A stretch of 64,000 nucleotides of DNA, taken from positions 3,752,481 through 3,816,480 of the forward strand of contig NZ_JAJKFT010000010.1 of assembly GCF_020966755.1 (NCBI RefSeq). The letters run 5' to 3'. Below are positions 41,601-59,753 of this stretch, piece after piece. The notes beneath the pieces were generated by a model. It ran no database searches. It saw only the letters and a program-made list of their open reading frames with translations, and was not told the origin of the DNA. The translations under genes were made by a program, and so were the position numbers. How positions within the stretch are numbered: the stretch's first letter is position 1; the number at the start of each line of letters is the position of its first letter. This DNA comes from Blastopirellula sediminis. GTDB taxonomy: Bacteria; Planctomycetota; Planctomycetia; Pirellulales; Pirellulaceae.

Positions 41601-44392
41601 TCGTCGATGTTGCCGCCGGTCGGGGCGGTGTCGATGGTCGGAGCTTCGTTGACGTCGGTGACGCTAACGGTGACGGTGACTTCGCTGCTGGTCTCTACCG
41701 GCGAACCGTTGTCAACAACCACGACCTTCAAGTCGAAGGTGTTCGGCATTTGCTCAAAGTTGAGCGATTGCATCGGAGCCAGCGAGATGGCGCCGGTCGT
41801 GCCGTTGATCGCAAACAAACCGCCGCCGTCGCCGCCAGCGGCGAACTGATAGGTGAGGGTTTGCAGGTTTTCGCCATCGGCGTTGTCCGGGTCGGCGCTC
41901 GCAAAGACGTCGTTCAGCGAAACGAGGGTTCCCGGCGCCGAGTTTTCGGCGATCGTGCCGGCAGTCGGAGCGTTGGTGATCTCGGGCGTTTCGTTGAGGT
42001 CGTTGACGCTGATGCTGACCGTGATCGGCTGGCTGGTAAGCGTACCGTCCGAAACGACGACCGACAGCGTGTAAGACTTGGTGACTTCGTAGTTGAGCGT
42101 GTCGCTGGCAACCAACGAGATGACGCCGGTGGTTGCGTCAATTTGGAAGATGTTCGGAAGCTTGCCGGCGCCGGCGTCAGGGACGATCGAATACGTGAGC
42201 GTTTGCAGGTTCATCCCGTCCGAATTGTCCGGATCGAACGCTACGAGCGGCGCGCTGAGGGTGACGACCGTACCGGCGGTGCTGTTTTCGTCGATGTCGC
42301 CAGCGACCGTCGTCGGCGCCAGCGTCGGCTGTTCGTTTACATCCGTGACGTCGATGGTGAAGGTGACGCCGGCCGAGGTCAGGCCTTCGCCCGGGTTGTT
42401 TTCGAAGCCGTCACCCTTGTTGTCGGTCGCTTTGACGGTGAAGGTCAGGAAGCGAACGCCGTTTTCAAAGTTGAGGGCGCCACCCGGATCGGAGATCGTA
42501 ACGATACCTCCCGTGCCGACCGTGACGACCACGCCGGAGGCGCCGAGCGACGCCTTGTTTTCATCAAGGGCGTCGACGCCCAAGACTTCATACGAGAGCG
42601 ATTCGCCCGCGTCCTTGCTGGCGGCGGTCAGGTCGACCGTGAAGCCGCTCAGCGTCAGCGGATTGTTCACGTTGGTCGGGGTCGTTTCGCCGAGGCTCGA
42701 TCCGTCCAGGCTCGTGCCGTCGATGACCGGAGTCTGGTTGCGGACGATCTCAATAGTCGTCGTGTCGCTGTTGCCGGCCAGATCCGAGTAGTTGACCTGC
42801 AGCGTGTTCACGCCGACCGCCAAAGCTACGTCGTTGATCGTGATCTTGCCGTCCTTGTCGCTGTCGGTCACCTGGACGCCGCCGATTGAAACGGTGGAGC
42901 CGGCTTCAACGGTCACGGCGAAGTCGCCGTTGTCGTCGATGGTGCGAGTGGGCGAAGCGTCCATTTCCACGACATTGTTCGTCAGCGTGATGCCAGGCGC
43001 GGCGATGGCGCGATCGATGTTGACGGTGAGGATGGAGCTATCCATGCTCATGTTGCCGGCGGCGTCGTAAGCGACGGCCTTGATGTCGTAGCTGCCGCTG
43101 GTGACGAATTGCGACGTGAGGCTGAACTGCACGGCGCCGGAGCCTGAGTCGAGCTTGGTCCCGGCCGAAACGCCGTTGACGAACAATTCGACGAGCGAAT
43201 CGGCTTCGGTCGCAACGTCGAATACCAGCGTGTTGGCGTTGGTCAGATTGTCAGTGTTGGAAGTTCCGCTGTCGCTGCCGGCATTCAGGTCGACCGACGG
43301 AGTGGTCGGATCGGTCGAATCGAACTCGAACGTAAACGTGATCGGGGTGGAGTAAGTGTTCCCCAGGTCGTCGGTCGCGTTCAGCATCAGCGTGTACGGA
43401 CCACCGACGGTGACGTCGGTGCCGAACAACGCTTCGAGGTCGTTCCGGCTTAGGCCGAACGTGATGTTGCGCACATCGGCCGTGTTCGATTCGGCGATGG
43501 TGTGGTCGAAGATGCTGACCGAGCTGCTGTCGCCGCTGATCGTGGCGGCGGTGATGTTGCTGAAGTCGGTGATCGTGCCGCGAATCGCAACGTCGGTGGC
43601 GCCGGGAATCACATTGGTGACGCCGTCGGTGGCGCCGCCCGGATAGCCAACGGCGGTCGAATCGTTGACCAGGGCGACCGTGATCGTCGGCGGGTCAATG
43701 TCGCCGATCAGGTCGAGCTTAACGGTGACGTTTTGGTTCTTCTGAACCCAGCTGAGTTCGTTGGAATCGACCTTGCCGTTCTGGTTGAGGTCGAACTCAT
43801 AGTCGTATTGCGACTGGTTCAAGTCGATTCCCCAAACCGACTTGTAGTAGAGCGCAGTATTTTGGTTCCCCGTGCCGGCCGCTTGGATCTGCGCGGCGCT
43901 GGCCTGCATGTATTCCTGTTCGGAGGTCATGCCGCTGCCGTTCGCGTCGCCGAAGAGGAAGATTTCGGCTTGGAACTCGCCGCCGCCGTTGCCGCCGACT
44001 TCGATCGTCAGCGTTGAAGTCCCCATCTGAAAGAAGACCAGGCTATCGGTCGTGCCGTTGACGTTGGCCATGGCGCTAACCGGCGTGATCACCTGCGAAG
44101 GCATGTCCTTCACATGGATCAGCGGAATGCCCGGATCGAAGTTGCCGGCGGTTCCCTTGATCTTCAAGCCGACCAGTACGGACGAAGCGCCGCTGACATG
44201 GTCGAGCGTGATGTCGCGAGTCGTCCCCGCAGCGATGGTAAGGTCTTCCACCAAATCGATGGTGGTCAATGCGAGTAGATCGCGAATTTCCAGCCGTTCG
44301 CTCGCTAATTTCTGATGCGCCTGACGCCGACGAGCGCGTCCGTGCTTGCGAAGCTTGCGATTATTTTCACGAGTCCAATCTGTGTTTTTCAT
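35663..44392 (-). CDS. Giant cadherin-repeat/dockerin surface protein with matrixin-like C-terminal module
   Basis: About 2,909 residues. The N-terminus is basic (RKLRKHGRARRRQ) and carries ERLEIRDLLA near residues 32-41, the LEPR-xLL-type motif of large exported planctomycete proteins. An early region has a dockerin-like calcium stretch (FDLNQNGKVDSNELSW). Cadherin/CHU-type repeats of about 100 residues fill roughly 690-1720; TDVNEAPT and DENSAPGT recur at their borders. Then a beta-rich region, a cohesin-like segment (EWDTFWVEVWAN ... AVDLKYNTDLF), a dockerin pair (DLDDDGNVSLIDLM near 2508, DFNNDGYTSLEDL near 2544) and MLHELGHLYGF near 2681, an HExxHxxG zinc site like matrixins. An acidic tail ends the protein. 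Probably an adhesin or matrix protein. Start: ATG 44392; an ATG nine bases upstream is possible. Confidence 0.9.
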   Translation of the reverse strand: MKNTDWTRENNRKLRKHGRARRRQAHQKLASERLEIRDLLALTTIDLVEDLTIAAGTTRDITLDHVSGASSVLVGLKIKGTAGNFDPGIPLIHVKDMPSQVITPVSAMANVNGTTDSLVFFQMGTSTLTIEVGGNGGGEFQAEIFLFGDANGSGMTSEQEYMQASAAQIQAAGTGNQNTALYYKSVWGIDLNQSQYDYEFDLNQNGKVDSNELSWVQKNQNVTVKLDLIGDIDPPTITVALVNDSTAVGYPGGATDGVTNVIPGATDVAIRGTITDFSNITAATISGDSSSVSIFDHTIAESNTADVRNITFGLSRNDLEALFGTDVTVGGPYTLMLNATDDLGNTYSTPITFTFEFDSTDPTTPSVDLNAGSDSGTSNTDNLTNANTLVFDVATEADSLVELFVNGVSAGTKLDSGSGAVQFSLTSQFVTSGSYDIKAVAYDAAGNMSMDSSILTVNIDRAIAAPGITLTNNVVEMDASPTRTIDDNGDFAVTVEAGSTVSIGGVQVTDSDKDGKITINDVALAVGVNTLQVNYSDLAGNSDTTTIEIVRNQTPVIDGTSLDGSSLGETTPTNVNNPLTLSGFTVDLTAASKDAGESLSYEVLGVDALDENKASLGASGVVVTVGTGGIVTISDPGGALNFENGVRFLTFTVKATDNKGDGFENNPGEGLTSAGVTFTIDVTDVNEQPTLAPTTVAGDIDENSTAGTVVTLSAPLVAFDPDNSDGMNLQTLTYSIVPDAGAGKLPNIFQIDATTGVISLVASDTLNYEVTKSYTLSVVVSDGTLTSQPITVSISVNDLNETPEITNAPTAGTIAENSAPGTLVSLNDVFASADPDNADGENLQTLTYQFAAGGDGGGLFAINGTTGAISLAPMQSLNFEQMPNTFDLKVVVVDNGSPVETSSEVTVTVSVTDVNEAPTIDTAPTGGNIDENSAPGTAVILTGGSFTSSDPDNADGAGLQNLTYAFDTNGDGGGLFVIDGATGAISLASGKSLNFESMPNTFDLKVVVTDDQTPALSSTPVTVHVVINDVNEAPVLNTTLYPITELLLQSMSGGSTGLTIDVTDPDFGDVLTFSSTGGGTGDSLFTVNSDGTINYTGPVTPGDYTLNINAVDDDPTTPLGVNGTITIRVLDNLPPVVDQTTFDVPENLPNDDLAFTLTFSEQNGEMDGIKGATLLTNAGGAFKLGTFSNDSIGVLVNDSSKLDFESITPLTFTVRVTDNVGSFGDYLITVNLTDQNDAPVYGGGLTFSVDEFVAAAPPTAGTPADDTEVSPSLDLSVAFTDQDGDMLMYTIDASTDPNGIFAIVNDKLVVAKPELVDYESDTSYTIKVQAFDGDVTTSQEIQIDVNQRNELPLPLDGSNMPLTATAGVVELGTLNVLFDDLNNMVGMELPGGKNLFSILNIGADPEGDTILYTQAGNTSFFTLESDGTIKLAQVIAEPMGDFTDYDISFTYADNNPGGSTASADVGVGLVHFTLRVLKNIPPVIATPGGTSTTIAENSANDTALPTVTLSLSDADPMDTVGVPTIAVSAFSDAFKLVETGMGTNVYTVAVADSTKLNYETIRQTFASGVIPITINVMDNRGGAAVPVVINITVTDVNEAPSFDAPSFTFNIDEMAPDSTTKVGDALNGPAVAATDPDSGDDGVTPASDASFSQLKFVLSGTGAENFNIDSNGVITVAAGAMLDAETTSQYALTVSVTDQDGLGLSAATVSTVTININNVNEAPETSGETPAAIVIDESQLFVGGNPNYAGEGVYNTRDGYELRFAISDIVDSLGNPIFSDVDDAISALSFSIVGMPTYSANDSFFDISVDTMTGELVVQMFHYLPSQSRLPKTITIQAEDAGGLFSATADLTIKFEVENVVDVQIRAVKALSTDDGTNGGVTSADLPGSSNLVLVADNALDNTFYYEVWISMNYGIDQAAPGRVYFDGLSLFNLNLQYDNRYLNVVSSGFEQLANTPIAGLQPTFTTNGDDGYIFNIVGLMSSINPNEQTGNGAYFFPNMDAGDYVRVASLEFTLDQNLMEPGTTDQLISLYYEDPTPLQDPNGGPLKFLLDPTGTGTSLPGTTESQVATVNYDQVSENSTSTEVVTDFLVFNIASTPFGLDLSKSTLDGSAMTAQGATGATGAVSGNLYVQILDAFGGTSQVRIVGADLNFGDTGNYTPATANKAGAELTAAANYGLEQGTSTNIAIRNEGLQLSSPITLDINGPFFGASIGKIDSTAMDFVFDSGDVVSTLAITQTTTIGGVTSMAGFTVSSSGVENSTIQATEAGVANDLTDDNITISLDLNRLLFSSDALDTVGFAMDLFAAGKIIATYNGGVVNPPLMGTVSANGGQPLEEGSGVFLSVVDAPTTVDASGEIAALPVSETWLSEWDTFWVEVWANTADASGIQSGAVDLKYNTDLFSAVKIEYASSFDQNRTGLISDGSGLITNLGSGTLADGVGKGGFVLLGRVKFQSLVNDGLSIEEGLQYGPADLGLEITRGQLELADVGLTRAATSEAPSVDVWAVPYDLDDDGNVSLIDLMQFVRNVGTTSIAVDNALSAATDFNNDGYTSLEDLTQLVRNVGVSKATAYNLIYPTTFTQLWVGSGLVTSGPDTIDSIFKAANEAWADALGLDEPLDVRLEVTNLGGAQLGEAKLVGLDEEGLPVRGVLTIDDDGAGFGWSTDLTNGPSSGQYDLYTVMLHELGHLYGFMPQYSAFGDQLQTFDGQTIFVGDLYAVEMDSRGEHLDPDLYSSDIMSPYLAPGVRKEISALDVQMILTAYAAADSSTTVDSSHAALTEESAFVNNSVIISPVTETTTYDIESAPLTTSFVLGDDVANLADVSGRTGYAVVMPESTRQTLQQSGIAFKTLSNYAAAEHESISEVMTDVDSYFDDSTLIESTISDIDSTEAGDAEEGSVDDLFAEWDEIEMA

Positions 44393-44931
44393 GCTATGCA
44401 CCGACCACCCAAGATCCGGGGGAGATTTGATAGTTTGGGGGGTTAAGGAGAGAAAGGGGGAACGAGGACCGCAATAGACTTGGAACGAATCTAACCGTCG
44501 GGAAAAAATCCTGGGTTAGAGAGGGGGTAGCGTTCTACGGAGTTCCATTTAAATCAGCCGGTTTCGGGATTTCAACGAGAATGCTGGCACTCTGTTGATG
44601 TTGATCACCTAGTTTACCTAACTCACCTTCTCGTTGTGCTGCTTGTAGGGGATCTGTCAGTAGCGCCTTGTGTGATACTGTGACGCATCAAGGTTTGTGT
44701 ATGTGTTTTATGTGAAGATATTCCGATTAGCGACTCTGTGCGGCCTTGGTGGCAATAATCCCTTTGGTACCAATCATTTCGATCAAACTTTGGGGAGTGA
44801 TTGTTCCGAATGAACTACTGCCTGCCGCGTCCATTTGCGCGGTACCGTCCCGCCGTCGCTATCCAAAACGAGGTGGGACGCCCTGTAGGTCCCACGGGGG
44901 GCGGGGGGATTTTTGGTCAAAGGAGTGCAGG
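44393..44931. other. Intergenic region between divergent envelope genes
   Basis: About 540 bp between the divergent giant surface-protein gene and the first BBP2 porin gene. It is visibly AT-richer than the genes (notably 44580-44720) and presumably contains both promoters. I saw no RNA gene, operator dyad or clear repeat; the stretch 44720-44930 is open in the porin frame but lacks protein-like features. Confidence 0.45.
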
Positions 44932-47905: not shown

Positions 47906-50900
47906 TCAGGCCTCAGCCATCGCCTGATCGACCAGGATCTGGAAGATCGCCATCTCTTCGGGAGCGAACAGGAATCGCTGGCCAGGAGCAAGCGTGTTGG
48001 CGAACAGTGCGTTGGCGGTTTCGTCGCCGTCGCCGAGCAACTCATGCAGAATGACGCTGAGCAGATCGATGCCGCCGTCGGCGTCTCCGTCTGCGATCGC
48101 TTGCCAGGAGTTGGTTCCGCTCGAGTTGAATTCTTCGTTGAGCGTCGGGGTCGAATCGACGAACCAGCCTCGGCCGGCCGCGTCGATATCCAGGTAGATC
48201 GTCCCGTTGTTGCGGTAGCTGAGCTGCGAGCCCGGCAAGTCGACGATCTGGAAGTTGGTCGTGACGACGTAATTGAAGATGCTCAGTTGGCTGTAGGCGT
48301 CTTCGACCATCGCGGTTGCGGCGTCGAATACCGGCTGAACCGATTGGACGTCGATCGAGGTCACGGCGCCTGCTGATGCCGTTCCGCCGGCGGTCAGCGG
48401 CTCTTCGGCGAGCCGAACGGCCAGGTAGTTGAAATCGTAAATGATCTTGCTGCCGCCGCTAACGCTGGTCCACGACTCTCCCAGTTCGCGAAGCAGGAGC
48501 GATACGTCATAGGTCGACAACGCTCCGCTGAGATCAAAGTCGCCGATCGTCGAGCTGGTCGTCGCTCCGCCGGTGTAGAGGCCGGCGAAGGCGAAGATGT
48601 CCGAAATATTGACTTGTCCGTCGTCATCCATGTCGTAGACGACCGGCAAGATCTTGGTGCTGGGAAGCGCCGTCATTTGGGCGTCGACCATCGCGGTGTC
48701 GGGCGCCTGAATCTGAGCGTTGTTGACCGAGAACAAGGCGTCGAACGCAATCCCTTCGCTATCGACCGCCAGGCCGCCGTTGGCGATCGGCTGGAAGCGG
48801 ATCCGAGCCAGCAAAACGCGTTCGCCGACTCCGAGGCCGGTCGATGTTGCGGCGGCGTCCAGGCCCGAGATCTCGCCAGTTTCGGTATTGATCGTCGGCG
48901 TGCTGGTGAACTGGAAGTTGGCGCCCGGTTGGATCGCGCTGACTTCAAACAGCCCCGGTACGAACTGCAGATCGACCGCCGCGGCGCTGACGCCTTGCGT
49001 CGAAATGCGATCTGCATTTACCCAGACTTCAACCCAAAACGCATCCCATTCGTTCAGATACGATTCGCTTAGCGGCAACGCGTCGACCACCGACGCATTG
49101 GTTTTCTCACGCGAGACGGTGATGCCGATGTCTTCCGTTTCCAGTACCGAAACCGTCACGGTGGCGGTTGCCGTGGAAGTGCCGTTGGTAACCGTATAGG
49201 TGAACGCGTCGAGTCCGGTAAAGCCTTCCGCCGGAACATAGCGAATCTTGCCGTTCTCAATCGAGATCGCCGCCCCTGCGGCTGAGCTGGTGAACGACTG
49301 GATCGACAAGCCGGCGCTGGTCGACAAGTATTTGTTCGCACGATCGTTGCCGAGGACGTCGAGAATCGCGACGCTGTCGACGTCGATCTGATACATGTCG
49401 TCGCCGGCGACCGCCAGCGTGTTCGGCACGACGTTAATCGTGATGAGCCCGTTGGTCGCCGATCCGCCGTAGATGTTGCTGACTTGATAGTGCAGCGAGA
49501 ACGTGCCGGAGTAACCGAGCGGCGGCGAATAGACGAGGACGCCGTTTTCAACGTTTAACTGCAGACCCGCAGGGGCGTCCAGGATCTCAAAGGTGTCGTA
49601 GTCCCACGCCGGCGCCGACGCCGTATCGTTCGCCAGCGGAGTCAGCGCGTTCACCGACCCGGCGATCGTGTCAAAGGTGTCGCTGACCAGGATCGGAGCG
49701 GCGGAGGCCGAAATAGTGATGATCTGGAAGTCGATGTCGTTGGCGCTGTAGGCGTTCGTGGGGTCATAGGCGGCGACGATGATTTGTCCAGTTCCCCGAA
49801 AGGTGCTGGGCGCCTGAATCGTGAGTTGCCCCGACACGTTGTCGACCGAATAAATCAGGCCGTTAGAATCGTGCGACTGATAGGAAAGGCCGTAATAGTT
49901 GAGGAGCGACTTATCGAGGTAGCGGACCGCGGTGCCGTTCGGGTCAATCCCGTTGAGCTGATAGGTCTTCGTGCTGCCGGGATTGACGATCATATTCGGC
50001 ACCGGCGCGAGATAGGCGACTTTGTTCGAGCCGCCTGGGATGTAGGATACCGAAACGGTGCGCGAAAACGTGTTGCCGCTGACGTCGGTCGCCGTGATCG
50101 TCAGCGTGTCGGTGCCGGTGATCCCTGGGACGAACGTGTTGAGTTTGACCAGGGCGTTTTCTTTGTCGTAAAAGATCTCCGCCTTTTCGATGATGACGCC
50201 GTACGACGGGGCGTCGCTCGAGTTGGTGGGGATTTGGGCGATCGCCGCACGGACGGCGTCTCCTTCGGTCATATAACCGAAGATCGTGTAGCGGAAGTCG
50301 AGGGAGCCGCCGTCGTTGCCGTCGGACGTGATGAAAAATTGCGAGCTGTTCGTGTCGTCATACGACTTGGCCATCCCCAGCGTACCAGCGCGGTTGAAGA
50401 GGAGGTCGTTGTCGTATTGGTCGTTGAACGTGGGGACCGAACCGTCGCCGTAGCCGGTTCCCGTCGGATCGCCCCCTTGGATCATGAAGTCTTCGATGAT
50501 CCGGTGGAACGTCAGGCCGTCATAGAAGCCCGATTGCACCAGCGAGATGATCTGCTCGGTTGCGAGGTTGTTGTAGTCTTCCAGCAACTGGAATTCCATC
50601 ACCCCGAAGTTTTTGATCGTCAGCCGCAGGCTGCGCGTCTGTTGGCGGACTTCCGTTTCAATCGTTCCGCTGCTGCTGGTGACGGTATAGGTGAGCGGCT
50701 GACCGGTCGGCGCGTATCCGTCGAGCGTCAAAAACAACGGCTCGCCGGCGTTCAGCGTGATGGGATCGATTTCGGCGATGTACGGAGTTGTCGAAGTCGG
50801 TACCGTAACGCCGCTGAACTGAACCAACTGCGTGATCGACATCGTTCCCTCAACGCGGGAACCGTCAGCGAAGACCCACGTCGGCAATTTGGTGATCCCC

Positions 50901-51439
50901 AGCGACGTGCCGAGGGCGTTCAGCGTCTTATCAGGATTGGTAACTTCGACGAACGGCAGGTAGTCCCCCCCTTCCCCGAAGATGTTCTTTTGCTCGGTGC
51001 AGTGAGGGCACCAGACGGCGCCGTAGAACTTCGCGCCCGTCGCGGCGATCGCTTTGGCCAGGGCGACCATGTCGACGTTGGAGTAGATCTGCCCGTCGAT
51101 GAATAGGTTTTCCCCTTCAAGTTCGACCCCAGCGGCGTCGAAGACTTCGCGGACTTCGAGCGCTTCGACTTGCATCGGCTGCTGCTTGCGCCTTTGGCCG
51201 CTCTTGGCTGTCAGTGGAATTACCTTGACCTGGGAAGCGCGAGCCAACGCCGCCATTGCCCCGCAGAGAAGGAGGACGCATGCGAATACGAAGATGACGA
51301 GATCAGGGGGAAGCACGGCAGGAAGCTCTTCAGTATTAGGGGGAGTTCGCTCTACAGGGGGAGGCGACCTAGATTCCAGATTACTTGGTTTCGGAGTGCT
51401 GTCAAAAGGATGACGTGCCGCGCAAATGGATTGCTCCAC
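47906..51439 (-). CDS. Secreted thioredoxin-cyclophilin-dockerin fusion protein
   Basis: 1,177 residues. A TM or signal segment (about 45-66) precedes the LExR motif MQVEALEVREVFDA (89-102). A thioredoxin-like domain follows with W143-C-P-H-C147 and the cis-Pro region TKLPTW (183-188). Then a cyclophilin-type PPIase (about 270-430: F311-H-R, Q-G-G-D near 321, SSQFFI 365-370). Cadherin/Ig-like beta repeats fill about 430-760, then a cohesin-like segment (NEWDAFWVEVWVN), dockerin repeats (DMDDDGQVNISDI near 935, DFDLSGALSTYDV near 970) and a C-terminal module homologous to that of the giant protein, but with HELLGD (about 1130) instead of HExxH. Start GTG 51439 has a weak RBS; in-frame ATG codons lie further in (residues 62 and 89). 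Likely an extracellular folding factor. Confidence 0.88.
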   Translation of the reverse strand: MEQSICAARHPFDSTPKPSNLESRSPPPVERTPPNTEELPAVLPPDLVIFVFACVLLLCGAMAALARASQVKVIPLTAKSGQRRKQQPMQVEALEVREVFDAAGVELEGENLFIDGQIYSNVDMVALAKAIAATGAKFYGAVWCPHCTEQKNIFGEGGDYLPFVEVTNPDKTLNALGTSLGITKLPTWVFADGSRVEGTMSITQLVQFSGVTVPTSTTPYIAEIDPITLNAGEPLFLTLDGYAPTGQPLTYTVTSSSGTIETEVRQQTRSLRLTIKNFGVMEFQLLEDYNNLATEQIISLVQSGFYDGLTFHRIIEDFMIQGGDPTGTGYGDGSVPTFNDQYDNDLLFNRAGTLGMAKSYDDTNSSQFFITSDGNDGGSLDFRYTIFGYMTEGDAVRAAIAQIPTNSSDAPSYGVIIEKAEIFYDKENALVKLNTFVPGITGTDTLTITATDVSGNTFSRTVSVSYIPGGSNKVAYLAPVPNMIVNPGSTKTYQLNGIDPNGTAVRYLDKSLLNYYGLSYQSHDSNGLIYSVDNVSGQLTIQAPSTFRGTGQIIVAAYDPTNAYSANDIDFQIITISASAAPILVSDTFDTIAGSVNALTPLANDTASAPAWDYDTFEILDAPAGLQLNVENGVLVYSPPLGYSGTFSLHYQVSNIYGGSATNGLITINVVPNTLAVAGDDMYQIDVDSVAILDVLGNDRANKYLSTSAGLSIQSFTSSAAGAAISIENGKIRYVPAEGFTGLDAFTYTVTNGTSTATATVTVSVLETEDIGITVSREKTNASVVDALPLSESYLNEWDAFWVEVWVNADRISTQGVSAAAVDLQFVPGLFEVSAIQPGANFQFTSTPTINTETGEISGLDAAATSTGLGVGERVLLARIRFQPIANGGLAVDSEGIAFDALFSVNNAQIQAPDTAMVDAQMTALPSTKILPVVYDMDDDGQVNISDIFAFAGLYTGGATTSSTIGDFDLSGALSTYDVSLLLRELGESWTSVSGGSKIIYDFNYLAVRLAEEPLTAGGTASAGAVTSIDVQSVQPVFDAATAMVEDAYSQLSIFNYVVTTNFQIVDLPGSQLSYRNNGTIYLDIDAAGRGWFVDSTPTLNEEFNSSGTNSWQAIADGDADGGIDLLSVILHELLGDGDETANALFANTLAPGQRFLFAPEEMAIFQILVDQAMAEA

Positions 51440-51520: not shown

Positions 51521-51553
51521 AAAAAAGCGACAGCCCAGCTTGGGCTGTCGCTC
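51521..51553 (-). terminator. Terminator of the DUF3467 gene
   Basis: Minus strand: GCGACAGCCC, short loop, GGGCTGTCGC followed by TTTTTTT. Near-perfect ten-base-pair stem, about 40 bp after the stop. Confidence 0.9.
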
Positions 51554-51592: not shown

Positions 51593-51949
51593 TTAGCCCT
51601 GCGGGCGAACCGACGGCAGCATCCGCTTTTGGAAGTCGATTTCCAGGTTGCCGAACGCCGCTTCATGACGCTGAACCGAGACCTGCAACGCCGCGAGCAT
51701 GCGCTTGGCGGTGTAGTAGTTCAGGATGATGCGTTGGCTGACCTTGATCGCGCCTTGCGGCACGCCGACCGGCTGGGTGTTCAGCGCGAAGTCGATGATC
51801 AGTTCTTCCGGCGTACCGGTCACGCGGCAGAAGTTGGCGTACGAAGCGATCAACGCACTTTCATCCAACTCGACTTGCTGACGCGCGGGAGCGGCGGACT
51901 TGCCGGCTTCGGGGGAGGTCATTTCTTCTTTTTCGGGGGCGTCGGCCAT
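51593..51949 (-). CDS. DUF3467 family protein
   Basis: 118 residues. ASYANFCRVTGTPEELIIDFAL, VPQGAIKVSQRIILNYYTAKRML and QRHEAAFGNLEIDFQKR match the DUF3467 core. Soluble, with an acidic N-terminal tail. Function unknown; family members occur in many bacteria and often sit near transport or envelope genes. Here it lies downstream (182 bp) of the PqqD-M50-HlyD gene on the same strand. Confidence 0.88.
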   Translation of the reverse strand: MADAPEKEEMTSPEAGKSAAPARQQVELDESALIASYANFCRVTGTPEELIIDFALNTQPVGVPQGAIKVSQRIILNYYTAKRMLAALQVSVQRHEAAFGNLEIDFQKRMLPSVRPQG

Positions 51950-52131
51950 TGAGATTCGACTCCTAGGGGGAAAAGCGAATAGAGCGAGTTGATACAGCTC
52001 AGTTAACGATTAGCTTAGTCACGGCGCCAAAGGATCAAGTCGCCAAATCGACGATTCTCCAACGGCAATTGAATTCTTAAACCGCCATTATCGCTCGAAT
52101 CGTTACAAGCGATACCCGGGGTAAAACGGGG

Positions 52132-54384
52132 CTACAGTTTGAAGTGGAACGTGCGGTTCACGTAGCGCCAAAGTCGTAAGCCCAGCGGCTGCCAGTCGAC
52201 GAAGATCTTGGCGCGGCCTCGTAGACCGACGGCGGTCATCGCTTCGACGTCGGTCAAAGGCGCCTGGGCGGGGAACGTCGCGTTTTGCGGTCGAGCGCGA
52301 CCCGACAGCGGATCGGTTTCGGCGGCGAGTTCGCCTCCTTGTTGGACCGTTAAGCTGTTCGGAACGAATTCGACTTGCTTGTCGCCGATCTCGGCCAGCT
52401 TGGTTTCAAAAGTTTTGCCAGGGAAAGCGTCTAGTTTTATGTAGACCTCTTGCCCCATGCGAACCAGTTCGACGTAGTCCTGGTCGACGTAGATCACCGC
52501 TTCCATCTGATCGGATTCGCCGATCTGGCAGAGCGCGTCGCTGGTCGTGACGTAGGCGCCTTGGTTCCGTTTTTCAAACGGCGAGCCGGTCCAGGTCGGC
52601 AATTGCCCCGAACCAGATTGCGGATCGCGGCGATCGGCCGAAGGGAAGATGAATCCGCTGACCGGCGCCGGGACGTTAATCAGTTGTTGTTCGATTCGTT
52701 TCTTTCTCAGCTGTTCCGACGCTGACTCCAGTTGTTTGCGAACTTCCATATAGCGCTGTTCGAACGATCCGCCGGCATTGTCGCCCAGACGGAGATGATG
52801 GAGACTGTCGCGGAGCCGAGTCAGCCGTTTCTCTTCTTCTTCCAATTCGGCGATCTGAGTCAGCAGGTCGTAGTTGATGACGCGGGCGAGCTGCGACCCT
52901 TTCTCGACCTTCTGACCTGGCTGGACCAGCATTTCTTCCAGCACGCCGGGAACGACGACGTAAGCGACTTCGGCGTTTTCCGGGCGAACTTCGACGGGGC
53001 AGTTCACCCATTGGGGCAATGGAATCAGCGCGATTCCGGCGACCACGCCGACGGCCACGGCGACCGTCGCGAGAACGTTTTTGCGTTTCACTTGCGACAT
53101 TCTCCCCGGCACGTACATGAACTTGCCGAACTTCCAGAGTGGCATCACGACCAGGCCCCACAAACCCATCAGGGCGATCGTCTGACCGATAACTTTCAAG
53201 CCCATCGGCTCGAAGACTTGATTGAGAAAGTACAGAATCGAAAACATCACGACCCAACGGTAAATGTTGGACGCGATCGTATAGAGGCCGAAACCAAGGC
53301 GATTGCGTTGCGGCAGGAACGGGTCTTCCGGCTGTTCCAGGCCCAAGCACCACTCCGACAGATATCGCTGCAGGATCGTGCTGGCCTTCTGCCGCATGTT
53401 CGGCACTTCCATGACGTCCGACAGGATGTAGTAACCGTCGTAACGCAACAGCGGGTTGCCGTTGAAGACGATCGTGCTGATCGAGCTGACGAACATCACC
53501 TGCAGGCAAAGATGATTCAACAGGCCCGGCTCGCTGAACCACCATAAGAACGTCGCCGTCGACGCCAGGATGATTTCGATATACATCCCCGCGGCGCCGA
53601 TCGCCGCGCGGTGCCACTTGTTCGGCAGCATCCACGAGTCGGAGACGTTGCAATACAGACATGGGGTAAGGACCAGGAACATAACCCCCATCTCGTGACA
53701 TTCGCCCCCAAAGCGTTTGCACGACAGGCCGTGTCCAAATTCGTGGCAAACTTTGGTCGCCGCCAACACGCAGCCGAGGAGCATCCAGTTGGACCATTCC
53801 GGACCGAAGAACTCCTGGAATTCCGGCAGTCGACTACGGAACGTGTCGTACTGGACCAGCACCAGCAACAGCGCCGTCAAAGCGTAGAGCGAAAAGAAGA
53901 TCAGCGCCGGCATCGTGAACAGCCACCGCGTGTACGGCAGCATCGCGTTGAGCAGCCATTCCGGGTCGATCCCCTTAAAGCGAATCGAGAGAATGTTCGA
54001 GGCCGTTTGCAGACGCTCATTCCACTTGCGGCTGTCGCGGCGCTTACGGAGTTGGCGGCCTTGATCGCGCGATTCGGCGATGATCAGACCGCTGCGGTGA
54101 AGCGTACCGATAAACTGCTGCAATTCGCGAAAGCCGATCTTCTGCGGCGCGAATTCTCTTTCAAACTTTTCTTTGATCGTTTCCAGCGAAGTATGCCCGT
54201 CCAGCATTTGCAGGATGGCGTACTCTTCTTCCTGAAAGCGGAAGTAGTTGAGTCCGAGCGGCTCTTTAACGACCCAGTAGGCGCGCCCCTGATAATAGTG
54301 CCGGCGAGCGGTCAGGTCAGGGCGAATGCGCAGGCCGAGCGGGCGCGAACTGCTGGCGATCAAACTGTCGGTTAGCGTTGCCAA
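52132..54384 (-). CDS. PqqD-like/M50 peptidase/HlyD membrane fusion protein
   Basis: About 750 residues. N-terminal PqqD-like winged domain (residues 45-115: EYAILQMLDGHTSLETIKEKFE). Then about eight TM segments with an M50 site-2-protease core: HEFGHGLSC (HExxH, near 214) and the third metal motif NPLLRYDG (about 312), plus CxYC-type CLYC. A biotin/lipoyl-like HlyD adaptor follows from about 455 (VVVPGVLEEMLVQPGQKVEKGSQLAR, VPAPVSGFIFPS, PGKTFETKLAEIGDKQ), interrupted by a coiled coil (about 500-570). The start appears to be TTG 54384, 13 bp after the stop of the upstream HlyD gene; no internal ATG fits better. Combines peptide or peptidase handling with an export adaptor; probably acts in the inner membrane. 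Confidence 0.9.
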   Translation of the reverse strand: MATLTDSLIASSSRPLGLRIRPDLTARRHYYQGRAYWVVKEPLGLNYFRFQEEEYAILQMLDGHTSLETIKEKFEREFAPQKIGFRELQQFIGTLHRSGLIIAESRDQGRQLRKRRDSRKWNERLQTASNILSIRFKGIDPEWLLNAMLPYTRWLFTMPALIFFSLYALTALLLVLVQYDTFRSRLPEFQEFFGPEWSNWMLLGCVLAATKVCHEFGHGLSCKRFGGECHEMGVMFLVLTPCLYCNVSDSWMLPNKWHRAAIGAAGMYIEIILASTATFLWWFSEPGLLNHLCLQVMFVSSISTIVFNGNPLLRYDGYYILSDVMEVPNMRQKASTILQRYLSEWCLGLEQPEDPFLPQRNRLGFGLYTIASNIYRWVVMFSILYFLNQVFEPMGLKVIGQTIALMGLWGLVVMPLWKFGKFMYVPGRMSQVKRKNVLATVAVAVGVVAGIALIPLPQWVNCPVEVRPENAEVAYVVVPGVLEEMLVQPGQKVEKGSQLARVINYDLLTQIAELEEEEKRLTRLRDSLHHLRLGDNAGGSFEQRYMEVRKQLESASEQLRKKRIEQQLINVPAPVSGFIFPSADRRDPQSGSGQLPTWTGSPFEKRNQGAYVTTSDALCQIGESDQMEAVIYVDQDYVELVRMGQEVYIKLDAFPGKTFETKLAEIGDKQVEFVPNSLTVQQGGELAAETDPLSGRARPQNATFPAQAPLTDVEAMTAVGLRGRAKIFVDWQPLGLRLWRYVNRTFHFKL

Positions 54385-54397
54385 CGGTCTTGCTCGT

Positions 54398-55354
54398 CTA
54401 GTTCTCGGTCAGGGCGGCGGACTTTTCGTTCCGATTGCGGAAGCGTTCCAGTTCCGTTTGGGGAACCGGTTGGCGATCGATGTGGACCGTGATGCCGGCG
54501 ATGTCGCCCGGGGCGAGCGCCCAGTAGCCTTTGTCGGTCTGACGATTCTCGACCACGGCCGAGATGTCGAAGGCGCCGGTCGCGTCGATTTCGGGGCTGA
54601 CGAAGTTCACGAAGCCCGAGAACTGCTGCATGCCCGACGGGGTGCGAACCGTCACCGTGACCGGGCGGTGGATCAACTGCGACGGATCGTGCTGATCGGC
54701 GTCGAGGGTCCCCTCCACTTTCAGCCATTGCAGGCCAATGATGCGGAGCAGCGGATCGCCGGGGCGAACCCATTCGCCTTCCTGACGATAGACTTGCACC
54801 ACGACGCCGTTGATCGGCGATTCGGTACGGCAGCGATCCATGACCATTTCGGCGCCTTCCATTTCGGCGCGACTTTCGGCGGCGGCGAGCCCGGCGATCT
54901 TCTGGTTCATCGCCGCTTGTTCAATTTGCAGAACGGCGCGTTGATAAGCGAGCCACGCTTTGTCGAGCTGGATCTTGCTGATCGTACCGCGGCTTTCCTT
55001 GTTGCTTTGTTCGAAAACTTCGTGTTCTTTCAGGGCGACTTCGGCCGCCTTGGTGGCGTAACGAACGTCGATGTCGTTGGCCGCTTCGGTGGTCGCTTTG
55101 TCATGACGGAACTTCGCGATCTCCGCTTGCTTAGCGGCGGTTCGATCGTCGATTTGAGCCAGCAGATCGCCGTCGACGACGATGCGGCCGCGATAGGCCG
55201 GGATCGTGACGAGCATGCCGGTTTCCTGGGCCGGGACGTTCACCTGATCGAGCAGCGAAACGAGGCAATGATCGACGACGACATCGCCGGCGCTGGAAGG
55301 CGACGCGGGAACTTGTCCGACGGCGGCGGCAAGTAAGAGGATGGCGAGGGTCAT
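54398..55354 (-). CDS. HlyD-family periplasmic adaptor
   Basis: 318 residues with a signal peptide (MTLAILLLAAAVGQVPA). N-terminal lipoyl-type half (VVDGDLLAQIDDRTAAKQAEI), an alpha-helical hairpin (about 75-165, coiled-coil-like AE/K-rich), the second lipoyl half (ESPINGVVVQVYRQEGEWVRPGDPLLRI), then a beta-barrel domain (VTVTVRTPSG). Such proteins bridge inner-membrane transporters to the outer membrane. No ABC or RND transporter is adjacent; its neighbours are two other HlyD-domain proteins, 13 bp downstream and 70 bp upstream. AGGA lies nine bases before the ATG. Confidence 0.9.
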   Translation of the reverse strand: MTLAILLLAAAVGQVPASPSSAGDVVVDHCLVSLLDQVNVPAQETGMLVTIPAYRGRIVVDGDLLAQIDDRTAAKQAEIAKFRHDKATTEAANDIDVRYATKAAEVALKEHEVFEQSNKESRGTISKIQLDKAWLAYQRAVLQIEQAAMNQKIAGLAAAESRAEMEGAEMVMDRCRTESPINGVVVQVYRQEGEWVRPGDPLLRIIGLQWLKVEGTLDADQHDPSQLIHRPVTVTVRTPSGMQQFSGFVNFVSPEIDATGAFDISAVVENRQTDKGYWALAPGDIAGITVHIDRQPVPQTELERFRNRNEKSAALTEN

Positions 55355-55424
55355 TCTATCTGTTCCTGAGGATGGTTCGTTTTGAGGAGGGGGAGCGTTT
55401 GGGAAGTGCGTCGCTCGCGACTGT

Positions 55425-57494
55425 TTAGAACAGCAATCGAGATTGGACGAACTCCCAAACCTCGTGCAGCCAGGTGTACCCCAGCGACGCGGTCCCGCAA
55501 TTGATCTTGGCGGTGGCGGTCGCTCCGGTCCGGAGCTGCGGGATGGCTTCCATCAGCTTCTCTTTGTTGATCGCAACTTTGATCCGCACGATCTGCCCTT
55601 CGTCAGGATCCGCTTGGGCGAGCCGCTGGATCTCAATCACTTTTCCTGCCAGTTGCGTCCCCGGCTGGCTGGCCATGATGTAGGTCACGTCCAGGTCTTC
55701 GCCCATTTCCTGTTGCGCCTTGACGATGTGCTGGAGACGCTTCTCGGGCATCTTGACTTCCAACACCCAGTCCTGATTCGGATCGACGACGGTCATCAAG
55801 ATCTGGCCCGGCGACACCGGACGTTGCATGAGCGAGTCGCGGACGTCCCAGCTGACCACTTCACCGGCGATCGGGCTGCGAACTTCGAGGAACTGTTGCT
55901 TCTGCGCGAGCAGCGCCATTTGATCGTTGAGTTTGGCGACTTCCATCTCGGCCAGCGCCAAGTCGACCGCCAGTTGACGCTTTTCGTCGTCATCTTTGGC
56001 GAAGTTGCGGCGATGGATCAAACCGCGCAGCGACTGCTCCGCTTTCGACTGTTCGCCGACCAGACGCTCGTACTGCATATCCAAGTCGCGATTGCGGAGC
56101 TGCGCGACCAGTTGGCCCGCTTCGACGATCTGACCATGTTTGACCGGGACGTCGATCACTTCCCCTTCTTCGCGAACGAAGATGTCTCGCTTTTCGACCG
56201 GAGTCAGCGTCGCCGAACCGGACAAGCGAAAGGGAACTTGAATCACGCACAAGGCGACCGCCGCAGCGATCACGGCGACGGTCGCGCCGACCGTTTTGGG
56301 CAGGTTGCGAGCTTCGACCAGCACGCGCGACTTGGCGAGCAAACGCCAGAGCGGCGTCAGCGGAATGTTGTTGTAATCGATCGCATTGGCCAAGGCCCGG
56401 CAGCTATGCTCCGAGATCAACTCGACCCCTTTGCGGAACTCGGCCTGGTTCGAGCTGTCTTCGATCTGCTCGACGATCAGCGCGCCGAGGATTTCACCTT
56501 GGTACTCTCGTTCCTCTTCACCTTCGATTTTCTCTTTGGCGTCGGTCGCATGTTCGGGGCGGCGAAGCGGAATGATCGCGATCGTCTTGGTGTGCGATTC
56601 GTCGACGTAATCGTGGACGGCTGTTTCTAGCTGCGGCGAGAGATCTTCGGTATGACCGCTGAACCAGAACGCTTCGCCGGTATCCATGACCGTTTTGGTC
56701 AACTTGCCGAGCAGCGTGATCTGATTGGAGCGAGCGTCGAAGACGTCTTGCCCGCTGACCGCTTCGACCCGCCAACGACGTCCGCGACGGAGCGCGACGC
56801 TAACGCGGTCGCAACCGATCAGGCGGCGTCCTTCGTTGGCGATGGTATAGGCGGTCTGACGCAGGTCGAGGTTTTCGTGAACGGCTCGCGAGAACTGCTC
56901 GATCTTCGCCCAGAGCGATTGGCGGTCCGAGTAGTCCTTCAGCTGTCGGGTCTTGAACCATTCGGTCGTCAGCCCGCACATTTGTTCGAGGAAGCGGAGG
57001 TATCCGCGTTGGCTGGCCGGCTGCGAGTCAGGCCGCTGGAAGATCTCGATGACCCCTTCCACTTCCTGGTCTTCATTCTTGATTGGCGCGATGACCAACA
57101 GCGAGTTGGTCGGATTGCCGGAAGCGCCTTCTTCGATCGAACCCGATTGCGGCGGGAGCAATTGTCCCGGCGCCCCTTTGAACATCTCTTCGATCAACCG
57201 GAGATGGCGAATGCCGTCGTTATCTTCCGGATCGACCAGACTGCGCGTCAGGTTGACCTGGTAGATCAGTCGCGGTCGGCGCTTTTCGTCGTAGATCCAA
57301 GCGGCGCCGCCGATGGCGGCCAACGCAGAGACGACTTTCGGCAACATCTCGCGGAAATAATCTTCCGGCGGGACGTTCTGTTTCGAAAGCGCAGCGATCT
57401 CTTGGATCAGACTTCGAATCTGTCGCTTCGTGCTTTCGAGAGACTCTGGATTAACCGAGGACGATTCGGAAGACATAGCGGATTGTGGATTCAT
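55425..57494 (-). CDS. GAF-GAF-TM-HlyD fusion protein
   Basis: About 689 residues. Coiled-coil N-terminus (15-40), then two GAF-like domains (about 45-185 and 200-375; GGAAWIYDEKRR, GVIEIFQRP, RRLIGCDRVSVALRRGRRWRVEAVSG, ILGALIVEQIE). A single TM helix (about 402-421, VGATVAVIAAAVALCVIQV) is followed by a HlyD adaptor domain (PVKHGQIVEAGQLVAQLRNRD, a coiled coil, VRSPIAGEVVSWDV, PGQILMTVVD). The cytoplasmic GAF part may sense a ligand and the periplasmic part may act in export; such a sensor-adaptor fusion is unusual. First gene of the three HlyD-type genes. ATG 57494 is used. Confidence 0.9.
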   Translation of the reverse strand: MNPQSAMSSESSSVNPESLESTKRQIRSLIQEIAALSKQNVPPEDYFREMLPKVVSALAAIGGAAWIYDEKRRPRLIYQVNLTRSLVDPEDNDGIRHLRLIEEMFKGAPGQLLPPQSGSIEEGASGNPTNSLLVIAPIKNEDQEVEGVIEIFQRPDSQPASQRGYLRFLEQMCGLTTEWFKTRQLKDYSDRQSLWAKIEQFSRAVHENLDLRQTAYTIANEGRRLIGCDRVSVALRRGRRWRVEAVSGQDVFDARSNQITLLGKLTKTVMDTGEAFWFSGHTEDLSPQLETAVHDYVDESHTKTIAIIPLRRPEHATDAKEKIEGEEEREYQGEILGALIVEQIEDSSNQAEFRKGVELISEHSCRALANAIDYNNIPLTPLWRLLAKSRVLVEARNLPKTVGATVAVIAAAVALCVIQVPFRLSGSATLTPVEKRDIFVREEGEVIDVPVKHGQIVEAGQLVAQLRNRDLDMQYERLVGEQSKAEQSLRGLIHRRNFAKDDDEKRQLAVDLALAEMEVAKLNDQMALLAQKQQFLEVRSPIAGEVVSWDVRDSLMQRPVSPGQILMTVVDPNQDWVLEVKMPEKRLQHIVKAQQEMGEDLDVTYIMASQPGTQLAGKVIEIQRLAQADPDEGQIVRIKVAINKEKLMEAIPQLRTGATATAKINCGTASLGYTWLHEVWEFVQSRLLF

Positions 57495-57788
57495 CAAGAG
57501 CTTTGGAGGGGATTGGGAACCCGGCTTAGGGGTTCCAACAACAGAATCTTACTTCCCACCTTACCAACGGCGAGCGAAAACCGAAATTGACGTATTTCAA
57601 AAGGAGTTCAGATCTTTGGTGAAACGCCGGCGATCTATCGCATCAATCCGGCTTTGCGGTTTGCAGTGATCGTAACGACCGACAGAGATTGAACTTGATT
57701 ACGAAAGCGTGAGCGAAATCGCCCAAACAATTCAGACGATACGGCTCGGGATTTCGTTCCGAATAGCGCGAAAATGCGGGCAGTAGCG
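57495..57788. other. Intergenic region between SecA-like and GAF-HlyD genes
   Basis: About 290 bp, AT-richer than surrounding genes. Likely promoter region of the three-gene HlyD unit; no clear terminator for the SecA-like gene or known RNA was found. Confidence 0.4.
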
Positions 57789-59753
57789 TTAGTCTGGGGC
57801 GTCTAGGTAAGGATCTTGCCCCATTTCACGATGCATTTTCTTGCGCATCTTTTCGTGATAGAGGAGAACTTTGCGGTCGCCGAAATGCTTCCGCTCGATT
57901 TTTCGCTGCGCCTTACGGAAGAGGGAGGCGTAGTGGTTGAGTTCGCCCGCCGCGTTTTCGCCAACTTTCGCTAGCTTCTTCGCGCGGATCGGGCCGTAGC
58001 CAATTCGCAGGCAATCGTCGTCCATCGACATATATTGCCGCACGCTGCCGGGATCGCCCTGGCGACCACAACGCCCAACCAACTGGCGGTCGATGCGGGC
58101 CGAGTCGTGCAGTTCGGTGCAGATGACATGCAGACCTCCCAGGTCTTTGATCTCCTGGGAGAGCTTAATGTCGGTACCGCGGCCGGCCATGTTAGTGGCG
58201 ACCGTCACTTTGCCGGGGCCGCCGGCTCGTGCGACGATCTCCGCTTCAATCGCGACGTGACGCGCGTTGAGGACCTCGTGCTCGATCCCTTCGGCTTCGA
58301 GCAGCTTGGCCAGGTGTTCGCTCTTTTCGATCGTGCGCGTACCGATCAGGATCGGACGCCCCTGACCATGGATTTCGCGGATCTCGTCAATGATCGCTTC
58401 CCACTTGGCGTCCTCGGTCCCAAAGACTCGGTCCGACCAGAGTTGCCGCTGAACCTTGCGGTTGGTTGGGCAGCGAATGACGTTCAGCTTGTAGATCTTC
58501 TTGAATTCGGCCGAGGAGGTCGATGCGGTACCGGTCATGCCGCCCAGATGTCGGTAGCGAATGAACATGTCCTGCACCGTGATGCGCGCCGCCTGACCGG
58601 TGGCGACCGTCACTTCGATCTCTTCTTTGGCCTCGATCGCTTGGTGAATGCCGCCGCTCCACTTTCGCCCTTCCGCCAAACGGCCGGTCGATTCGTCGAC
58701 GATAACGATTTCGCCGTCGTTGATGACGTAGTGCTGATTGAAGTGGAAGTCGCGGGAGACCTTGATCGCTCGTTCGATGTAGTCGTACAGATCGACCAGG
58801 CCGACCGGATCAAGTTCTGACGGTTTCGGGATCCGGCGAACCAGCAGGCGCCCTTCAATCGTCAGTTCGACCGACTTCCGGTCATGGTCGTAATCGTAGT
58901 GGTCATCTTCGACGAATTCCTCGCATTTTTCGGCCGCCCAGCGAAAACAGGCGACCGCCCGTTGTTCCGCTTCGCCCGGAATCGAGCTAATGATCAGCGG
59001 GGTACGGGCGTCGTCGATCAACACGCTGTCCGCTTCGTCGACCAGGCAGTAAAAGGCGCTGCGCTGGACCGGTTGTTCGTTCGTCTCTTCGTCCTTCGAC
59101 ATGAGGGCGCCGAGCACGCCGAGCCCTTGTTCCCGGATCTGACGAATCAGCAAGCGATCACGGAGAAAGTCGAAGCCGAATTCCTTCGATGTTCCATAGG
59201 TGATGTCGCAGGAGTAAGCTTTGCGGCGGGCGTCGGAGGTCATCTGCGACTCGACCACGCCGATCGACATCCCCAGCATCTCGTACAGGGGCTGCATGAT
59301 CTCGGCGTCGCGGCGCGCCAGATAGTCGTTGACCGTCGCCAGGTGCGCGCCATTGCCCGGCAGCGCGTAAAGGTACATCGGTAGCGTCGCGGTCAGCGTC
59401 TTCCCTTCCCCGGTTTCCATCTCGGCGATGGATCCGTTGAACATGATCATGCCGCCGATCAGCTGGACGTCATAGTGACGCATCCGAATGGTTCGCCGCC
59501 CTGCTTCGCGGACGAGAGCGAACGCTTCCGGCAGTAATCGTGCTAGCGGTTCGCCGCTCTTGGCGCGGTGACGCAGGCCCAGACTGTATTTGCGGAGTTC
59601 GCGGTCCGCCTTGGTTTTGAACTCTTCTTCGAAACGCTCGATCTTGGGGAGTTCGGCGATAAAACGGGCCAGACCGCGGCCGGTCACCTTGCTGTAAGCA
59701 TGGGAGAACGGATCGGTGCGGAAGGATCGGGATTCGGCGATTTGCGTCGACAT
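57789..59753 (-). CDS. Short accessory SecA-like ATPase
   Basis: 654 residues, versus roughly 800-1,000 in housekeeping SecA. Present: Walker A METGEGKT (near 110), NDYLARRDAE, TYGTSKEFGFDFLRD, DEADSVLIDDARTPLIIS (Walker B plus cross-linking domain entry), a peptide-binding region, GGMTGTAST, IGTRTIEKSE, NMAGRGTDI and VGRCGRQGDPGS. After that motif only about 95 residues remain, so the helical wing/scaffold C-terminal part is strongly reduced and the Cys-rich zinc tail is missing. This points to an accessory SecA (SecA2-like) rather than the essential one. Proximity to the HlyD operon and giant surface proteins suggests a dedicated substrate. ATG 59753. Confidence 0.88.
   Translation of the reverse strand: MSTQIAESRSFRTDPFSHAYSKVTGRGLARFIAELPKIERFEEEFKTKADRELRKYSLGLRHRAKSGEPLARLLPEAFALVREAGRRTIRMRHYDVQLIGGMIMFNGSIAEMETGEGKTLTATLPMYLYALPGNGAHLATVNDYLARRDAEIMQPLYEMLGMSIGVVESQMTSDARRKAYSCDITYGTSKEFGFDFLRDRLLIRQIREQGLGVLGALMSKDEETNEQPVQRSAFYCLVDEADSVLIDDARTPLIISSIPGEAEQRAVACFRWAAEKCEEFVEDDHYDYDHDRKSVELTIEGRLLVRRIPKPSELDPVGLVDLYDYIERAIKVSRDFHFNQHYVINDGEIVIVDESTGRLAEGRKWSGGIHQAIEAKEEIEVTVATGQAARITVQDMFIRYRHLGGMTGTASTSSAEFKKIYKLNVIRCPTNRKVQRQLWSDRVFGTEDAKWEAIIDEIREIHGQGRPILIGTRTIEKSEHLAKLLEAEGIEHEVLNARHVAIEAEIVARAGGPGKVTVATNMAGRGTDIKLSQEIKDLGGLHVICTELHDSARIDRQLVGRCGRQGDPGSVRQYMSMDDDCLRIGYGPIRAKKLAKVGENAAGELNHYASLFRKAQRKIERKHFGDRKVLLYHEKMRKKMHREMGQDPYLDAPD

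Follow-up and report, generated by a model that had tools for sequence, protein, structure and literature searches.

What is a protein for that carries a thioredoxin and a cyclophilin on one chain? This question is raised by a gene in a 64,000-nucleotide stretch of the Blastopirellula sediminis genome (contig NZ_JAJKFT010000010.1, positions 3,752,481 to 3,816,480), hereafter the window. The gene, called the fusion below, lies at 47906-51439 (-) as a single uninterrupted open reading frame (ORF) of 1177 codons. A sequence-only reading of the window had taken its product to be an exported, dedicated foldase for disulfide-rich or proline-rich surface proteins. Computation established what the domains are, that their catalytic residues are intact, that the gene is under purifying selection, and that the combination recurs among relatives. 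A role as a folding helper is likely, not proven, because the active sites have largely decayed in one related genus. For the window's own lineage, the chances are about even that the fusion is an exported, envelope- or surface-attached foldase with two heads, a thioredoxin (Trx) and a cyclophilin.

Integrity of the fusion gene

The ORF is intact as the sequence-only reading had it, and the start assumed there is probably 41 codons too early. In the congeneric loci L069 and L070, a stop lies just upstream and the frame opens six codons ahead of the corresponding GTG, so that no earlier start is possible there. Thus, the first 41 codons of the 1177-codon frame are probably untranslated, and the likely true coding sequence is 47906..51316 (-), which starts with GTG at codon 42 and encodes 1136 amino acids. 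Residues are numbered below in the 1177-codon frame.

A frameshift or chimera of separate genes was considered and rejected. Three congeners carry the core from Trx to cyclophilin, at 75, 76, and 82% identity, within a single open frame of about the same length, and the ratio of nonsynonymous to synonymous substitution rates (dN/dS) was low. Compared with the congener L068, it was 0.06-0.29 across all segments past the N-terminal membrane stretch, namely, 0.14 for Trx, 0.13 for cyclophilin, 0.09 and 0.18 for the immunoglobulin-like (Ig) halves described below, and 0.16-0.29 for the later modules. Within the window's genus, the Trx domain showed values of 0.14-0.15. The membrane stretch itself was unconstrained or fast (1.03 against L068 and 0.46 against L069). 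The fusion gene is under purifying selection. Moreover, the combination of a WCPHC thioredoxin, a cyclophilin, beta-repeats, and a C-terminal module on one chain was borne out by Pfam, the PDB search, and the intact ORF.

Recurrence among relatives

The whole-genome search covered the window's own phylum. A query with the core gave some match in 60 of 60 relatives, mostly to an ordinary cyclophilin only, among the matches listed, and 36 matched places were fetched and screened for frames with both domains. The both-domain fusion was found in at least 25 of these 60 relatives, so that similar fusions, which the sequence-only reading had proposed to look for, do recur. A single-sequence search gave 24 fusion loci in G000 and 22 other genomes; the cyclophilins of G010 and G019 are divergent and still pass Pfam at 100.7 and 77.8 bits. 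A sample of 392 genomes from the phylum contained 17 with matches spanning both domains (<=1e-20), three of them also among the 60. All 17 fall in the window's class, either in family f1 or in genus g63 of family f21. Among the matches listed for these 392 genomes, none outside the window's class spanned both domains. Together, these searches gave 41 fusion loci from 39 genomes, all of them in the class. A pattern scan of genome contigs gave 14 loci, in near relatives only, with B. marina as the single full match. The thioredoxin-cyclophilin combination, for which phrase and combined-term searches of open-licence PubMed Central text found no paper, recurs across many relatives.

The thioredoxin domain

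The Trx domain occupies 50798..51085 (-), residues 119-214, with CPHC at 50999-51010. Judged by sequence and predicted fold, it is of the VKOR-linked kind. The Pfam match to Thioredoxin_2 was weak (0.0037, below cut-off). In the PDB search, the Trx region of the single protein matched 3kp8 at 1.1e-12, and a Trx profile of 25 sequences matched four sequences of VKOR homologues with E values between 4e-17 (3kp8) and 7.8e-15; the best match other than to VKOR homologues was 1.5e-5. The domain was predicted with a per-residue confidence (pLDDT) of 83-95 in blocks of ten, and 3kp8 ranked first against the predicted fold, with a template modelling (TM) score of 0.84 normalised to 3kp8. Both CPHC and the cis-proline (LPTW) are present in the window's domain. 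As cysteines occur only at positions 6, 54, 59, 144, and 147, the CxxC is the sole cysteine pair past the membrane stretch. The Pfam scan gave no VKOR domain match within the fusion chain. Twelve Trx-only relatives were fetched; by eye, five (L038-L041 and L045) carry an upstream part like the VKOR membrane domain, and the remaining seven are short frames of 116-203 codons without a VKOR part.

The cyclophilin domain and its probable nesting

The cyclophilin, a prolyl isomerase (PPIase) domain, lies at 50168..50635 (-), residues 269-424, and matches Pro_isomerase (PF00160) at 3e-32 and 112.5 bits against a cut-off of 21.7. The catalytic residues of cyclophilins, which we take to be R55, F60, Q63, A101, F113, L122, and H126 (and W121), were aligned with the window's domain. 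Six of the seven are kept (R55, F60, Q63, A101, F113, and L122); Tyr stands at H126, as in 5 of the 41 loci, and Ser at W121. The F-H-R and Q-G-G-D residues pointed out earlier were found in place along with the other PPIase residues, and a loss of the key residues was not seen in the window. In the first set of 25 sequences, R55, F60, Q63, A101, and F113 were present in all 25.

The cyclophilin is flanked by the two halves of a probable split Ig-like (Big_9) domain, the first at 50636..50797 (-), residues 215-268, and the second at 50045..50167 (-), residues 425-465. When joined, the window halves match Big_9 (PF17963) positions 5-88/89 at 23.9 bits (cut-off 23.6), and those of L073 and L086 reach 28.9 and 29.6 bits. 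Taken singly, the window halves stay under the cut-off, one without an Ig match and the other at 16.6 bits. In the wrong order, the window halves gave 20.3 bits with the second half only covered, a small gap to 23.9, and those of L073 still gave 28.2 bits with He_PIG, in two stretches; thus, the score alone is not decisive. What speaks for the split is therefore the fit of the first half to the front of the Ig profile and of the second half to its back.

A hidden Markov model (HMM) of the joined halves was built from 20 of the 25 joined sequences. It found both halves flanking the cyclophilin in 22 of 24 fusions (not in L053, where the frame ends, nor in L064), a count that is partly circular. 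Nine long cyclophilin frames without a Trx match had not been used in building it, and eight of these carried both halves (L055-L059, L062, L063, and L067, with weak matches in L067 and L058; not L060). The nine frames keep R55, Q63, A101, and F113 in 9/9 and F60 in 8/9. The Ig-flanked cyclophilin also occurs without a Trx match, and the nested unit thus has a broader distribution than the fusion. In L065 and L066, Trx runs directly into cyclophilin, and contiguous Ig domains matched by the HMM in the collected frames numbered only three, at marginal E values of 5e-4 to 8e-4. Structure prediction was moderate for the Ig halves (pLDDT ~62-85), and the cyclophilin fold failed to come out of it, the alignment consisting there of two sequences. 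On the whole, there is good support for a cyclophilin that probably interrupts an Ig domain, which would be an unusual nested arrangement. As a separate observation, the frame L054:1880-6376 matches cyclophilin twice (543-692 and 1085-1232), in both cases after a Trx domain whose CxxC is lost.

Candidate redox partners and clients

The window's genome encodes a VKOR on another contig (C2:686632) as a 406-codon frame with, by eye, a DsbA-like second part. VKOR was found in 25 of the 60 relatives and in 7 of 14 further fusion genomes. Among the 60, it was commoner in genomes with the fusion (15/25 against 10/35, p = 0.019, uncorrected for kinship), and the search did not detect this expected oxidant partner in 10 of those 25. 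A DsbD-type protein is present in the window's genome and in 60 of 60 relatives. Both an oxidase and a reductase or isomerase are therefore possible for the Trx head. One variant of the foldase reading, which we hold to be unlikely, makes this head an extracytoplasmic reductase or isomerase fed by DsbD and not an oxidase fed by VKOR; the DsbD of all 60 relatives and the patchy VKOR would suit it. However, fusion genomes are the richer in VKOR, and the nearest solved relatives of the head are domains of VKOR homologues, which, according to the accessible part of PMC4555120, pass electrons from substrates to VKOR. VKOR was also considered as an obligatory partner, and this is unsupported, as its presence does not track the CxxC state.

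To our knowledge, it is not known how cysteine-rich planctomycete envelope proteins are assembled outside the cytoplasm. In the window's genome, YTV-domain frames of 516, 537, and 584 codons contain 67, 7, and 41 Cys, two of them being very cysteine-rich at 13.0% and 7.0%. PMC8567305 and PMC10632474 describe YTV proteins as components of the planctomycete cell wall that are rich in cysteine. The porins next to the fusion had been noted earlier for their cysteine clusters; these two BBP2 porin frames do contain 14 Cys each, although three in the first precede its likely start (by eye), and porins stand beside the fusion only in the window's genus and in g58. A cadherin-type giant of 2912 codons at 35663-44401, with no Cys and with HELGH near its C-terminus, is the next neighbour; as a disulfide client it was rejected.

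Conservation and loss of the active sites

Residue states at the 41 loci were read from a single alignment and are less sure in the divergent g63 cyclophilins. The CxxC is kept in 29 of the 41, the window included, and the cis-proline in all. R55, F60, Q63, A101, and F113 are all kept in 32 loci, again including the window. Of the other nine, L118 has Tyr at F113, L121 and L122 have Ala at F60, and L123-L128 have lost most of the five; all but L118 belong to g63. Removing L118 from the 29 loci with CxxC leaves 28 of 41 with both sites intact.

Several findings weigh against the foldase reading. The CxxC is lost in 12 of 41 loci, namely, L054, L086, L087, and nine of nine in g63, with Asp at the first Cys position in 10 of the 12; on a tree with the CxxC site masked, four changes are needed to account for the loss, and only one of them is forced by well-supported branches. 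In g63 (L120-L128), the Trx retains the W and the cis-proline with mostly D-x-x-T in place of CxxC, and 8 of 9 loci lack one or more of the five cyclophilin residues, six having lost most of them and two more F60. VKOR did not track the CxxC (17/28 with it intact against 5/11 without, p = 0.48; G036, which has one CxxC-intact and one CxxC-less locus, was counted as intact). As for the clients, the giant neighbour has 0 Cys, the 537-codon YTV frame has only 7, and YTV proteins occur in 60 of 60 relatives, fusion or not, so that their distribution cannot discriminate clients. Because the CxxC is gone in 12 of 41 loci and both heads have decayed in g63, the foldase reading is weakened as a general statement. 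The more specific proposal of a dedicated foldase for disulfide-rich proteins can be kept in part. The two intact sites in the window, the lone CxxC pair, the Cys-bearing porins, and the Cys-rich YTV frames speak for it, and the Cys-free giant, the narrow range in which porins adjoin the fusion, and the losses just described speak against it.

The unequal fate of the two sites bears on a doubtful yet serious alternative, in which a surface stalk carries a prolyl isomerase and the Trx fold mainly binds or orients unfolded chains, its redox site being optional. The cyclophilin residues can outlast the CxxC, all five being retained in L054, L086, L087, and L120, where the CxxC is gone, and the nine long Trx-less frames described above carry the cyclophilin unit on its own. 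However, this alternative has to face the CxxC retained in most loci and the low dN/dS of the Trx domain in the window's genus.

In g63, the fusion appears, from its residues, to have become largely non-catalytic, a pseudo-foldase. At all nine of its loci the gene has been retained, and with it the length (1555-1598 codons) and the adjoining SecA-like gene, as would be expected of a surface protein of structural or adhesive type whose two enzyme folds were taken up as binding modules, with catalysis as a relic or incidental. Much of the fusion is indeed an Ig/cadherin array with weak surface-type modules. Nevertheless, both active sites are intact together in the 28 loci counted above, and we regard a purely structural protein as improbable.

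Terminal modules

At the N-terminus, the hydrophobic stretch LVIFVFACVLLLCGAMAAL at 51245..51301 (-), residues 47-65, is a probable membrane anchor or signal sequence. It has the top 19-residue Kyte-Doolittle mean of the protein, 2.9, against <=1.3 beyond residue 100, and hydrophobic N-termini were found in L068-L071 as well. It is followed by QVEALEVREVFDA at 51134..51172 (-), an LExR-type motif as in planctomycete exported proteins, with LExR at residues 94-97; the motif precedes Trx in 22 of 24 relatives. The Pfam scan reported no Planc_extracel (PF07595) match in the window protein, and this family reached 19.6 and 23.7 bits in L075 and L083, under the cut-off of 25.5.

Behind the cyclophilin, an Ig/cadherin-like beta array extends over 49100..50044 (-), to about residue 780 and with approximate limits; Pfam matched Big_9 (1.4e-16, in two stretches) and Cadherin_5 (1.1e-7). 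A cohesin-like module at 48767..49033 (-) scores below cut-off (PF00963, 18.8 bits against 24.1; 21.7 bits in the relative L071). The dockerin named in the sequence-only reading can be kept as a dockerin-like module at 48545..48724 (-) with two Ca-loop-like segments by eye, and at 15.7 bits it stays under the PF00404 cut-off of 22.9; in L071, Dockerin_1 scores 23.6 bits, above it. The C-terminal module of that reading is present at 47909..48337 (-), limits approximate, and is identified here as matrixin-like and degenerate. L071 keeps HELGHILQVQH at its C-terminus (PF00413 24.0 bits, cut-off 24), the only HExxHxxxxxH zinc site among five C-termini compared, and the window has HELLGDGDE, with the zinc motif lost. 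The fusion's C-terminus weakly resembles that of the giant neighbour (22% identity, pairwise E 8e-4), and no second copy of the module was found elsewhere in the window's genome at E 0.01. Structure prediction was poor for most of the C-terminal half and gave no fold there (mean pLDDT 41.8). By these domain matches, the fusion counts neither as a VKOR nor as an active matrixin, and its standing as a dockerin protein is doubtful.

Gene neighbourhood

Between the fusion and a short SecA-like ATPase gene lie DUF3467, M50/HlyD, HlyD, and GAF/HlyD genes at 51593..57497 (-). The ATPase, of 654 amino acids at 57789..59753 (-), matches PF07517 at 2.9e-105 and carries SecA_DEAD, P-loop, and preprotein-binding domains; above cut-off, the genome has one short SecA and one of 1239 codons. 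Three congeners and four g58 loci keep the order SecA-like, GAF/HlyD, HlyD, M50/HlyD, DUF3467, fusion, two porins, and giant. The block recurs in G022, with porins and giant not in the stretch fetched. In g63, the SecA-like gene alone adjoins the fusion at 9 of 9 loci. M50/HlyD, HlyD, and GAF/HlyD genes stand beside the divergent fusion of L066, one HlyD-type match each was found near L085 and near L060 (a Trx-less cyclophilin frame), and a BBP2 porin lies about 5 kb from the fusion in L072. At the other fusion loci, no such neighbours were found within the few kilobases fetched. The block at 51593-59753 looks like an export or processing line, and a part in export of the fusion is guessed from where it lies. 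On the minus strand, a perfect inverted repeat of 12 bp with a T run after it (51526-51552) is a probable terminator separating the DUF3467 gene from the fusion; therefore, the fusion may possess its own promoter.

Proposed function and comparison with known systems

In the two-headed foldase reading, the N-terminal membrane stretch and LExR motif would carry the fusion out of the cytoplasm, and the Ig/cadherin array with the dockerin-like and matrixin-like C-terminus would anchor it in the surface layer. There, the VKOR-type Trx head might make, break, or shuffle disulfides of proteins emerging from export, and the cyclophilin head, about 55 residues on in its split Ig domain, would isomerise prolyl bonds. 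Cysteine-rich YTV wall proteins and the neighbouring porins are the candidate clients. If this is true, a conserved exported chain coupling disulfide and proline chemistry would offer a direct handle on planctomycete envelope assembly, and the genus in which both sites decayed provides a natural comparison of scaffold with catalysis.

Among known systems, the planctosome model links planctomycete surface proteins by cohesin and dockerin, with no role in cellulose degradation (PMC6461901, accessible part). The cohesin- and dockerin-like modules of the fusion, both below cut-off, make this model a comparison for it. That part of the source places peptidases in the model and names no foldase. For the Trx head, the nearest solved relative is the VKOR-linked Trx-like domain of the Synechococcus VKOR homologue (PDB 3kp8/3kp9). 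WCPHC and PTW are common to the fusion and to the Trx relatives fetched from other phyla. Unlike VKOR homologues, the fusion lacks the VKOR membrane domain in its chain, and its Trx lacks the further cysteines present in the VKOR-like frames L038-L041 and L045. With cyclophilin-type PPIases (e.g., PPIL1, 2x7k), the fusion shares PF00160 and the active-site residues, whereas its own cyclophilin is probably Ig-nested, has a thioredoxin before it, and carries Tyr at H126 and Ser at W121. In the endoplasmic reticulum, protein disulfide isomerase (PDI) and cyclophilin B act side by side on secreted proteins; these are the two activities proposed for the fusion, but they belong to separate proteins there and would belong to one chain in the fusion. 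We tentatively suggest, with more doubt than confidence, that Planctomycetia possess a single-chain surface counterpart of the PDI-cyclophilin pair, made of a VKOR-type Trx and an Ig-grafted cyclophilin, tied to an accessory SecA/HlyD/M50 export line, serving a cysteine-rich wall, and dead in one genus.

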